Below, piece after piece: positions 45,803 through 49,949 of a DNA stretch of 64,000 nucleotides. Each line of letters opens with the position of its first letter. The first letter of the stretch is position 1. This DNA comes from Bryobacterales bacterium (GTDB lineage Bacteria > Acidobacteriota > Terriglobia > Bryobacterales > UBA6623). The notes below the pieces were generated by a model. It searched no databases. It saw only the letters and a program-made list of their open reading frames with translations, and was not told the origin of the DNA. The position numbers and the translations under genes were made by a program. The stretch is from positions 1 to 64,000 of the forward strand of contig JAPPMC010000154.1 in NCBI GenBank assembly GCA_028819235.1, read 5' to 3'.

Positions 45803-46885
45803 CTAGATCTCAAACGTTAGCGGCCTGCTCCCCTGGCGCTCCTGCACCGAGATTTCGAGCGGTCGGCTGAAGTTGATGTGGTATCCGCCGTGCAGAGGGT
45901 TATGGCGGGTGGGCTGGATCTCCCCGGACTCCGAGACAGCGCGGGCCAGCAGCTGGCAAGGGCCAGGGCGCGACGGCGACCAAACGAGTCGCCAATGTGT
46001 CCAAGCGTAGCGTCGCTTCGGCCCGACGAGTTCGGCCTTCCTCCAAGACTGGCCGCCGTCGCAACTGACCTCGACAGCGGCAACGGACTCTGGGCCGGCC
46101 CAGGCAACTCCTTCAACCAGCACGGATCCCATGGCCACCGGTTCGCCGGGGCGGGGGCGCGTAATCTCGGACTTCGGCAGCATCATTGCCACCACGTCAT
46201 CTCTCAATCCCCTTGCGGTGCGGCGCTTGACCGTATACCGGGCGCTCTGGAAGTAGCCCTGAAAAGGCGCGCTCACCACGCGGACCGCTCGCAGCCACTT
46301 AACCGATGCGACGCCATACCAGCCGGGGACGACCAACCGCGCCGGATAGCCGTGTGCCTTCTCAAGCACCTCACCGTTCATGCGGAGAGCAATCAGGGTA
46401 TCGGGATGCAGCGCCATGGCCAGCGGCAGGCTCCGTGCAAAGCGGACCTGCCCAGCCGGCTCGCTGTCGACTCCGCTGTCGGAGCCCTCAAAGACAGCCT
46501 CCAACGCGCCCTCGGCGATGCCAGCCGACTCCAGAAGCTTGCCGACCGCGACGCCGGACCATTCGGCGTTTCCCACGGCTCCGGCCTCCCACTGCACGCC
46601 AGGGTTCTCGCCCTCCAAGAACGCCCGGCCGTTGCCGGCGCACTCGAGAGTCGCGACAAGACTGGCCTGCGGCATTTTGTTGAGAGATTCCCAAGTCAGC
46701 CTCAGGTCGCGCTTGACACAGCCGGTGACGGCCAAGCTCCAGCCGGAACGGTCTATCTCGGGATCGTCGAAGTGATTGCGCACATAGAACTGCTCGTTCG
46801 GGGTGATCCAGTTCCGGAATGCGTGGGCCGGTGTCTCGCTGTTCTCGGGCGAACTCGTGATTACTCGTCGACCAGAATGGGCCAT
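45803..46885 (-). CDS. Sulfite oxidase-like molybdopterin-dependent oxidoreductase (no N-terminal signal apparent)
   Basis: LECAGNGR with conserved Cys, PARLVVPGWYGVASVKWL, C-terminal dimerization-like domain; ORF opens at 47020 but ATG at 46885 follows a strong promoter. Confidence 0.88.
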   Translation of the reverse strand: MAHSGRRVITSSPENSETPAHAFRNWITPNEQFYVRNHFDDPEIDRSGWSLAVTGCVKRDLRLTWESLNKMPQASLVATLECAGNGRAFLEGENPGVQWEAGAVGNAEWSGVAVGKLLESAGIAEGALEAVFEGSDSGVDSEPAGQVRFARSLPLAMALHPDTLIALRMNGEVLEKAHGYPARLVVPGWYGVASVKWLRAVRVVSAPFQGYFQSARYTVKRRTARGLRDDVVAMMLPKSEITRPRPGEPVAMGSVLVEGVAWAGPESVAAVEVSCDGGQSWRKAELVGPKRRYAWTHWRLVWSPSRPGPCQLLARAVSESGEIQPTRHNPLHGGYHINFSRPLEISVQERQGSRPLTFEI

Positions 46886-46891
46886 GGTCGG

Positions 46892-46920
46892 ATTATACGC
46901 GCGTTTCTTCCCGGTTTCAA
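46892..46920 (-). promoter_or_regulatory. Consensus sigma70-type promoter predicting a leaderless transcript
   Basis: On the minus strand TTGAAA - 17 nt - TATAAT - CCGACC - ATG; predicted +1 falls on the A of ATG at 46885. Confidence 0.65.
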
Positions 46921-47419
46921 TGGATTCCTTTTCCCTAATTGTCGATTGGACTAGTAGGGATTGCCTGAGCCTCGCGACTGGAAGAAGCCATGCGTACGGT
47001 CCCTGCCGCTCGGCGTGCATGACGGCGGCAGACGGTGAGGCATCCTCCGCGATCGCTGCTCATCCTTGCCCTTGGTCACGCCGGTCCCCGATGGCGGGCC
47101 TCGGCTGACCCCCAGCCGTGATCAACGATCCGGCCCTTCCTGGCTCTCACTGCGCGACAGCCTTTAGACGGGCCTCGCAAGGGAAGCGCTTCTGTTTCGC
47201 GAACCAGATTCAGGCACGACCGACGCCTTTGGGGGATGTTGTCGGAGGATCCTGGCATTGGAGCGGCGGAAACTGTCGGAGCGTCTTGGCGTGTCCTACT
47301 CTCTGGCCGACCGAGACTTCGGCCATCGGCGCCCTAACTGCTCGGACGTGTCATCTCGCACCACGACTTATTCAGGCAGCGACCCGGAACTGTCCACGAC
47401 TCCTGCGCGGCCCGCACAC

Positions 47420-48155
47420 CGATGCGACGAAGGGCCCTGTTTGGGAAGAACGATCGCGCCTTGGAGGCCGCGGTTCCGCATCGGGGGAAGCGACTCGACT
47501 ATGGGGAGCCCTCAGAGCGGACCACTTGGCTGCTGGACCAGGCCTCGGGGCGTCCGTCTACGGGCCGGAATTCCGCTCGGCTTCGACAGCCCCTTGGATT
47601 CGGGCGACAAGCGCACTGCCAGAGTCGCAATCCTCGCTCCACGAAGCCACGGACTGCAGCGTGTCTTCAGAACGCAGGGATTGCAGCGTCCCCGCCAGCG
47701 AACTTGCGAGGCCTTCGCCAAACCGAGCACGCGCAATGCCCAGAATCACGCCCTCGATGCGCGCCCGCTTGGCTTTTGACTGCGCCCGTCTGAGGGCAGC
47801 CGCCAGCCGCTCCGTCTTGGCCCGCTCCATTTCCACCCACGTCATCTCTCGCTCCAGGACCTCCTCCACCAAGTCCAAGTCCTTCACCGGAACCGCGTCC
47901 GGATGCATCAGCCTTCCCTTCAGAATCGTCTGCACACATGTTACTAGCGCTTGGCGAGCTGCCTCCTCGTCCGACCTGCCCTCCAGCCATTCAGTCCACA
48001 TTTCGACCTCTCTCAAGGCGTGATCGACCGCTCCCTCGCGCTCGATCTGGAATACGCCCTCCGCGACGTCTCGAAAGGCCCGTGGCAGGTCTTCGCAACG
48101 GTGTGCGCGTCCACCAAGAGGTACTTCAGCTGGAGATCGCACGGACTCGCCCTGT
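47420..48155 (-). repeat. Degenerate tandem duplicate of the Rpn locus (copy 2)
   Basis: Aligns to about 48632-49388, including roughly 130 nt beyond the stop codon; homology ends near 48155. Confidence 0.75.
47558..48155 (-). pseudogene. 5'-truncated, frameshifted Rpn-family gene retaining an open C-terminal coding region
   Basis: EDLPRAFRDVAEGVFQIEREG...ERNSGP matches the C-terminal half of the gene at 48765-49889; 2-nt insertion near 48101-48106 (ACGGTGTGCGCGTCCACC vs ACGGTGCACGTCCACC); N-terminal half absent. Confidence 0.75.
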
Positions 48156-48631
48156 CCAAGGAGCGTGGTGAGCTCGGCAAGCACCGAAGGCTGTGCCTGT
48201 TTCTGCGTTTGGTCACGACAGGCCCTCCGTCGCGAGCCTACGCAGCCCCCAGTCGTGACCAAGCCACTGCTCCTTCCGAGCTTCCGGTGCTCCCGTCGGC
48301 CTCCCGCCGACCGATGCAAAGAGCCTCCCGCGGATCAGGAATCTCCGTCAGGCCCAATCGCAGCTTCGCAGGTCGAGGATTCCGGCACTGGAACATCTAG
48401 GGGAGTCGGAGAGTTCAGTATTTCCTGCTCTCTGGCCGGTTGGGACCTGGGTCGTTGGCACAGGCGTTCGGCTCAGACCGTCATCTTGCATCGAGTCATT
48501 CTCCCGGGAGCACTGTTCCGGGGGTGCCCAGATCTCTCGTGCCGCGCACGAAGAACCTCTCCGGGCGATCGCCGGCAGGGCCCACCGCGCTCGACACTCC
48601 TCATCCAGCCGGCTTTGTTTGCGGCCGCACC

Positions 48632-49388
48632 CTGATGCGACACAGAGCTCGGGCCAGAACGATCGCGCCTTGGCATCCGCGGTTCGCCCCGGCGGAAGGA
48701 ATTCAACTATGGGAAGCCTTCACCGTGGCCCCCTGGCCGCTCGACCGGACCTCAGGACGTCCGTTTACGGGCCGGAATCCCGCTCGGCTTCGACGGCCTC
48801 TTGAATTCGGGCGACCAGCGCACCGCCAGTCTCGCAACCCTCGCTCCACGATGCTACCGACTGCAGCGTCTCTTCGGACCGCACGGATGGCAGCGTCCTC
48901 GCCAGCGAGCTTGCGAGGCCTTCGCCAAACCGAGCACGCGCTATGCCCAGAATCACGCCCTCGATACGCGCCCGCTTGACTTCGGACCGCGCCTGTTCGA
49001 CTTTGGACTGCGCCCGCCTAAGGTCAGCCGCCAGCCGCTCCGCCTTGGCCCGTTCCATCTCCACCCACGTCATCTCTCGCTCCAATAGCTCCTTTAGCTG
49101 ATCCAAGCCCTTTACTGGAACCGCCTCTGGATACTTCAGCCTTCCCCTCAGAATCGTCTGCACCCATGTTACTAGCGCTTGGCGCGCTGCCTCCTCGTCC
49201 GATCTGCCCTGCAGCCAGCCGTGCCACACTTCGACCTCTCTCAGGGCACGGTCGACCGTCCCCTCGCGCTCGATCCGGAATACGCCGTCCGTGACGTTTC
49301 GCAAGGCCCGTGGCAAGTCTTCGCTACGGTGCACGTCCACCAAGTGGTATTTCAGCTGGAGATCGTACGGACTCGCCCAGTTCGCCGA
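48632..49388 (-). repeat. Tandem duplicate unit of the Rpn locus (copy 1, within and downstream of the intact gene)
   Basis: Matches 47420-48155 by direct reading of both strands. Confidence 0.75.
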
Positions 49389-49889
49389 CACCCTCCTCAG
49401 ACCCGCCAAGTCCGTCTTGGCGTTCCAGGCTCCGCCTCCGCTGTACAGGACTATCGGCAGCACCTGCGGGATTCTCCGCTGCTGCTTCACACGTGCGTTG
49501 CTTCTCATGAGCTCCAAGATCACATGGCTGACGTATAGCGCCATGCGGGCTGCCATTCTCCAGTCGGGGCGGTGTTGGAACTCGAGCATCAGCGTGACAA
49601 AGAGGTTCTCCCCGCCCTTCATCGCCACCTCCCAAACCAAGTCGTTCGCACTTCTGGCCAAGTTCTCTGCGACATGCTGCGTCTCGGCTCGGCGCAGTGT
49701 GCTGAAGTCGAGGCGGTCGGTGAATCCCTCGCTCGTGAAGCCGCGCAGAAAGTCCTTCATCATCGTCGCGGAGCCGTACAGCAGCCTGTATGCTCCATCG
49801 CGGTCGATCGGTTCCCTGAATGGCGAAGGCGCGGGATTGTTTGCTGCTTGGGTATTGCTGGAATCTTGGCCCAGATGTCTCTCACTCAT
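48765..49889 (-). CDS. Rpn family recombination-promoting nuclease / putative transposase (PD-(D/E)XK)
   Basis: DGAYRLLYGSATMMKDFLRGF, LVWEVAMKGGENLFVTLMLEFQHRPDWRMAARMALYV, LPIVLYSGGGAWNAKTDL; helical C-terminus. Start at ATG 49889 is predicted. Confidence 0.9.
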   Translation of the reverse strand: MSERHLGQDSSNTQAANNPAPSPFREPIDRDGAYRLLYGSATMMKDFLRGFTSEGFTDRLDFSTLRRAETQHVAENLARSANDLVWEVAMKGGENLFVTLMLEFQHRPDWRMAARMALYVSHVILELMRSNARVKQQRRIPQVLPIVLYSGGGAWNAKTDLAGLRRVSANWASPYDLQLKYHLVDVHRSEDLPRALRNVTDGVFRIEREGTVDRALREVEVWHGWLQGRSDEEAARQALVTWVQTILRGRLKYPEAVPVKGLDQLKELLEREMTWVEMERAKAERLAADLRRAQSKVEQARSEVKRARIEGVILGIARARFGEGLASSLARTLPSVRSEETLQSVASWSEGCETGGALVARIQEAVEAERDSGP

Positions 49890-49949
49890 GGCTGATCTTG
49901 GGGATTGGCCCCGCACACGCGATCGAAGGTGATTCGCTTCTCTCTACTG

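Follow-up and report, generated by a model that had tools for sequence, protein, structure and literature searches.

Partial tandem duplication of rpn in a Bryobacterales genome and the putative free-standing RpnS reading frame that it left

An intact rpn gene and a downstream half-copy

We analyzed a stretch of 64,000 nucleotides (the window) from a Bryobacterales MAG. It contains an intact rpn gene and a second, partial copy that corresponds to the C-terminal half of rpn (the half-copy). The features of the locus are as follows:

48765-49889, minus strand: intact rpn, 374 amino acids from its ATG, with a PF04754 nuclease domain and an RpnS-type C-terminus
49317-49799, minus strand: nuclease domain (PF04754), the toxin part of the intact gene, with no counterpart in the half-copy
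48765-49073, minus strand: internal RpnS-type open reading frame of the intact gene, 102 amino acids, with the SD sequence GGAG 6 nt before its ATG
48156-48764, minus strand: 3'-flanking sequence of the intact gene, related by homology (BLAST and shuffle test) to that of the half-copy
48621-48764, minus strand: near flank of the intact gene, a putative conversion tract (47407-47557 on the side of the half-copy)
48155-48156, no strand: tandem-duplication junction, where the flank that follows the intact gene ends and meets the interior of rpn
47558-48155, minus strand: half-copy, covering the C-terminal half of rpn and following the rpn frame from 48106 on
47558-48001, minus strand: alternative 147-amino acid reading frame of the half-copy, from an ATG at 48001 behind GAGAGAGG
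47558-47845, minus strand: 95-amino acid RpnS-type reading frame of the half-copy, without the heptad VEQARSE
47852-47855, minus strand: SD sequence GGAG upstream of the ATG at 47845
46990-47557, minus strand: 3' flank of the half-copy, the ortholog of the flank of the copy in genome G002, with ~80% identity

By its sequence, the intact gene is an Rpn nuclease of PF04754. It matches the family with E = 2.2e-18 (67 bits, compared to a curated cut-off of 21) and carries PD-(D/E)XK-type catalytic residues, with D55, E75 and Q77 invariant over ten rows of the nuclease-domain profile, this gene included. The omega of its branch is ~0.15. Its open frame starts farther upstream, at a GTG at 49916 (383 amino acids; 48765-49916, minus strand). 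The internal start is the ATG at 49073, where GGAGCGAGAGATG is identical among the intact gene, the half-copy and G002.

The similarity between the half-copy and the intact gene is far beyond chance: BLAST aligned 48155-47407 with 49381-48621 at 82% identity (E = 0). An earlier note on this DNA, made from the letters alone, had described the half-copy in terms that were largely borne out. The homology stops at 48155, as it had stated, and the 2-nt insertion that it had seen near 48101-48106 is placed at about 48103-48106 by alignment to the intact gene. The SD sequence (47855-47852) and ATG (47845) are arranged as in the intact gene, and the 95-amino acid product, for which it had counted a 7-residue deletion and about a dozen substitutions, lacks VEQARSE and has 13 substitutions relative to the 102 residues of the intact gene (86% identical). 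The C-terminal frame is open, as the note had claimed, but 95 amino acids is too short a measure of it: the rpn frame is open from 48106 on (182 amino acids), with no stop or frameshift after 48103. There is a second plausible start at ATG 48001 (147 amino acids), preceded by GAGAGAGG-TCGAA, at a position that is GTG in both the intact gene and G002, so the start of the 95-amino acid frame is not the sole candidate. The core KRARIEGVILGIARARFG is conserved in the half-copy, along with the SD sequence, the ATG and the 95-amino acid frame. The half-copy has no Pfam match and no nuclease domain, its homology starting C-terminal of the PF04754 domain, and a search for a promoter-like site for the half-copy found none.

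The sulfite-oxidase-like gene at this locus has TTGAAA-17-TATAAT 6 bases upstream of its ATG at 46885 (46885-46920, minus strand), which suggests a putative leaderless or nearly leaderless transcript.

Origin of the half-copy by partial tandem duplication

Judged from the alignments, a partial tandem duplication spanning the rpn C-terminal half and ~600 bp of 3' flank gave rise to the half-copy, which is its downstream unit. The first ~150 bases of the flank of the intact gene align by BLAST to the 3' flank of the half-copy. The remaining ~460 bases are homologous as well, with a semi-global score of 136.5 compared to 54.9 ± 10.3 for dinucleotide shuffles (z = 7.9). The units therefore lie in direct orientation: full rpn and its flank come first, then the C-terminal half and its flank. 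This is the order of a partial tandem duplication, and thus the nuclease half was never in the half-copy. The earlier note had taken the half-copy for a decayed copy whose toxin half was lost. Position 48155 is instead the duplication junction, the sequence upstream of it (48156-48764) belonging to the intact gene as its 3' flank, and decay of a nuclease half is ruled out by this junction. Nor does the note's suggestion, that selection may have kept the inhibitor while the toxin half disappeared, fit a copy that was truncated from birth and whose ratio of nonsynonymous to synonymous changes is not below neutral (see below). The half-copy was born without a nuclease domain, and its free-standing RpnS reading frame, complete with SD sequence and ATG, is an immediate by-product of the duplication.

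The closest relative, G002, is a Bryobacterales MAG of the same genus (record JAJDWM010000750). Among the genus genomes that we looked at, the order PIG-L/TlpA/rpn/sulfite oxidase occurs only in G000 (the genome of the window) and G002, and a scan of genome contigs found no genome other than G002. The flanks of the half-copy and of the G002 copy are ~80% identical along their length (near versus distal, P = 0.72). In contrast, the flanks of the intact gene and the half-copy are 75% identical near the gene and 58% identical distally (near versus distal, P = 0.0004), and dS between the two coding parts is 0.28. This pattern fits an older duplication that would have been followed by conversion of the coding part and the near flank; because homology in the distal flank is only ~60% identity, its exact age is uncertain. 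From the divergence gradient we infer that later gene conversion with the intact gene may have kept the coding part and near flank of the half-copy similar. Exchange of this kind with a gene under constraint is enough to keep the half-copy open, so its reading frame could be open without selection on the half-copy.

In G002, contigs C282 (at its end) and C212 (at its start) break inside rpn with an exact overlap of 141 bases. This overlap is as long as the k-mer of the megahit assembly (a contig is named k141_442689), which indicates a branch in the assembly graph, due to either a tandem repeat or a strain mixture.

The two 3' flanks in the window each contain a version of an element whose ends are complementary (TTGGTCACGAC ... 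GTCGTGACCAA), at 48209-48262 and ~47072-47125 (minus strand). The complementarity is complete in the version that follows the intact gene, and there is a related stretch in the G002 flank.

Selection on the half-copy

We counted changes on each branch of the triple formed by the intact gene, the half-copy and G002 as the third sequence, and started neutral simulations from the majority codons of the three. There were 26 nonsynonymous and 16 synonymous changes unique to the half-copy, compared to a neutral expectation of 29.4 nonsynonymous changes (P = 0.15; omega about 0.7). In contrast, the intact gene and G002 together had 8 nonsynonymous and 24 synonymous changes (omega 0.13-0.15), and the half-copy is relaxed relative to them (26/16 versus 8/24; Fisher P = 0.002). 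The RpnS part of the half-copy had 9 nonsynonymous and 7 synonymous changes (omega 0.55, P = 0.17), and the part upstream had 17 and 9 (omega 0.78). A second count gave 9/9 (omega 0.44) and 15/5 (omega 1.12), respectively. The gap between the two parts, which is not significant at these small counts, hints that the RpnS part may retain some constraint.

The earlier note had proposed dN/dS as a check, with a value near 1 speaking against retention by selection. The values for the RpnS part (0.44-0.55) lie below 1, but not significantly (P = 0.17), and a value near 1 remains compatible with the data. The chance that the RpnS part would be free of stops under neutrality is about 0.6. Pairwise dN/dS between the half-copy and the intact gene (0.27-0.35) was dropped as proof of selection on the half-copy because the constrained intact lineage lowers the value. 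On these counts, the half-copy cannot be told apart from a sequence drifting without use.

Relationship to RpnS of E. coli and the predicted product

In E. coli, RpnS is made from an internal start and binds and blocks RpnL, and there are separate RpnS genes, ypaA/rpnE_S and rpnC_S, downstream of the parent rpn (Zhong et al. 2023, PMC10327210). A stand-alone RpnS downstream of rpn is thus already known. As in E. coli RpnA-E (COG5464, PF04754 YhgA-like), there is a nuclease domain with D..ExQ, an internal SD sequence and ATG for a small helical C-terminal protein, a varying number of repeats in the first helix after that start, and tandem arrays formed by direct duplication. The variable unit differs: in the Bryobacterales lineage it is a heptad (VEQARSE or VEQAQSE) rather than the 4-residue unit of E. 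coli.

Like ypaA/rpnE_S and rpnC_S, the half-copy is an extra RpnS copy directly downstream of, and derived from, its parent rpn. It shares homology with the RpnS part of the neighboring gene and has its own start, as expected of a separate reading frame. The earlier note was therefore right that the retained part is the antitoxin half, in that it is the RpnS (intragenic antitoxin) part with its own start, for which E. coli provides the precedent (PMC10327210). Unlike YpaA/rpnE_S, the half-copy still has ~87 codons ahead of the RpnS start and is one heptad off its parent; it is known from sequence alone, whereas E. coli RpnE_S has been detected as a protein (PMC10327210). Some E. coli RpnS genes are annotated with DUF4351 (PF14261), which the half-copy does not match; 3 of 13 RpnS domains of the genus do (best E = 1e-4).

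AlphaFold2 predicted helices at residues 3-42, 44-54, 60-70 and 76-92 of the 95-amino acid product (pLDDT 93.7). If translated, it would be an RpnS-like helical protein that dimerizes through its first helix and, going by E. coli RpnS, it would cap RpnL nucleases of matching helix length. Searches with PADLOC and against PDB, by sequence and by fold, found no match; with no solved structure matching the predicted fold, a likeness to the RpnA_S crystal fold would be putative. The heptad that the half-copy lacks belongs to the long first helix. The number of heptad repeats is two in G002, one in the intact gene and zero in the half-copy, so that the half-copy and its neighbor are unequal. In E. 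coli RpnC, one 4-residue repeat more or less in the first helix abolishes inhibition (PMC10327210). By analogy, with a helix one heptad short, the half-copy is predicted not to be a cognate inhibitor of the intact gene, and it most likely would no longer inhibit it well.

C-terminal-only copies in the genus

We ran profiles of the RpnS domain and of the nuclease domain over eleven genomes of the genus. Of 25 full-length copies, 21 had an internal SD sequence with ATG or GTG near the RpnS boundary, compared to 21% of control windows (P = 6e-10). This argues that the internal start is a general feature of rpn in the genus, although codons there are constrained by the protein sequence as well. 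The internal SD sequence of the copies in G000-G010 is often GGAGGTG, six bases upstream of the ATG.

There were about 20 (internal) C-terminal-only copies and five to six nuclease-only copies in the eleven genomes (sign test, P about 0.004-0.009, ignoring shared ancestry; contig-edge cases were removed by hand). Both counter-selection of nuclease halves that lack an antitoxin and retention of free antitoxins would fit this excess. C-terminal-only copies lie right beside a full copy in G000 (C296, C305 and C6), G010 (C93), G005 (C22) and G003 (C23). In all eight tandem cases that we looked at, the full and the adjacent C-terminal-only copy had unequal repeat numbers; repeat number often differs between full-length relatives as well.

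As a class, solo RpnS parts had an omega of 0.45 (P = 1e-13 below neutral), compared to 0.40 for full-length genes. The parts upstream in solo copies were also low (0.54), so history before truncation, together with conversion, can explain the value for the class. Stops and frameshifts in C-terminal-only copies are nearly all upstream of the RpnS part. Striking as this is, we did not use it as proof, because copies found with the RpnS profile bias the count. By these comparisons, the half-copy appears to be an ordinary member of a recurring class of by-products in the genus and is possibly a stand-alone RpnS.

Interpretation of the half-copy

We consider it probable that the half-copy is a duplication by-product, homogenized by conversion and under relaxed selection, and that it is a transient or weakly used RpnS paralog and not a dedicated antitoxin. 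Two results count against this: the omega of its RpnS part is lower, though not significantly, than that of the part upstream (0.78-1.12), which would fit selection on the RpnS frame, and the class omega of C-terminal-only RpnS parts is like that of full-length genes, although history before truncation and conversion can account for this.

The half-copy could instead be an untranslated pseudogene fragment, open by chance and by recent conversion, a reading that we place somewhat short of an even chance. The relaxed ratio of changes, an omega of about 0.8-1.1 upstream of the RpnS part, the lack of a promoter-like site and the signal of conversion with the intact gene all fit this reading. It accounts less well for the somewhat greater conservation of the RpnS part, and for an SD-ATG arrangement that is intact in a frame with no stop or frameshift after 48103.

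It seems unlikely that the half-copy is a maintained stand-alone RpnS that neutralizes the neighboring RpnL or raises the ratio of RpnS to RpnL, like rpnE_S/ypaA. E. coli has the same arrangement and the extra copy is expressed there (PMC10327210); the half-copy retains its SD sequence, ATG, 95-amino acid frame and core, and the omega of the RpnS part is about 0.5. However, this omega is not significantly below 1, a stop-free frame is already the likelier neutral outcome (about 0.6), and the half-copy is one heptad short of its neighbor, where a single repeat change ended cross-inhibition in RpnC (PMC10327210). The earlier proposal of a stand-alone inhibitor kept by selection thus holds for the presence of an RpnS half with its own start, but the near-neutral ratio of changes and the missing heptad speak against the rest. 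A role as dedicated orphan antitoxin for the intact gene is possible, though we lean against it.

Less likely still is a stand-alone RpnS of new specificity, which would protect against shorter-helix RpnL proteins encoded by other copies or by incoming DNA. The unequal repeat numbers in eight of eight tandem cases and the many rpn copies in this genome would favor it. However, the differences among full-length relatives set the base rate for such inequality, and the remaining rpn copies of the genome share only ~30% identity, with RpnS being cognate-specific. C-terminal-only copies could also be silent donor cassettes, whose conversion with the full-length gene would shift the helix repeat number of RpnL and RpnS together and switch specificity, but we regard this as very improbable. 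The one-heptad difference and the conversion gradient between the two copies, and the unequal repeat numbers of full and C-terminal-only neighbors in all eight cases, would fit it.

If the half-copy is a by-product of duplication, as we favor, a single step is enough to create a stand-alone antitoxin, without a toxin-less intermediate. Since RpnS lies within rpn and has a start of its own, a partial tandem duplication would need only to cover the 3' half to yield a ready-made free antitoxin gene. Such newborn genes could persist, acquire new targets, serve as conversion donors or disappear, and because C-terminal-only copies are frequent in the genus, their fate is directly testable.

Other arrangements of rpn in the genus

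Tandem arrays of full and partial rpn copies are present in the genome of the half-copy itself, at G000:C296 (L053) and G000:C217 (L054), and in the sister genome, at G002:C204 (L052). In G005:C68 (L096 115-1870), a 249-amino acid Rpn nuclease frame is followed by two tandem DUF4351-type frames (109 and 101 amino acids) with an unequal number of 4-residue repeats. In G004:C8 (L065 1602-3783), rpn is split at the boundary between nuclease and RpnS by an insert with a 373-amino acid IS630-like transposase frame, leaving a 241-amino acid nuclease frame and a 100-amino acid RpnS-type frame 1.2 kb downstream.
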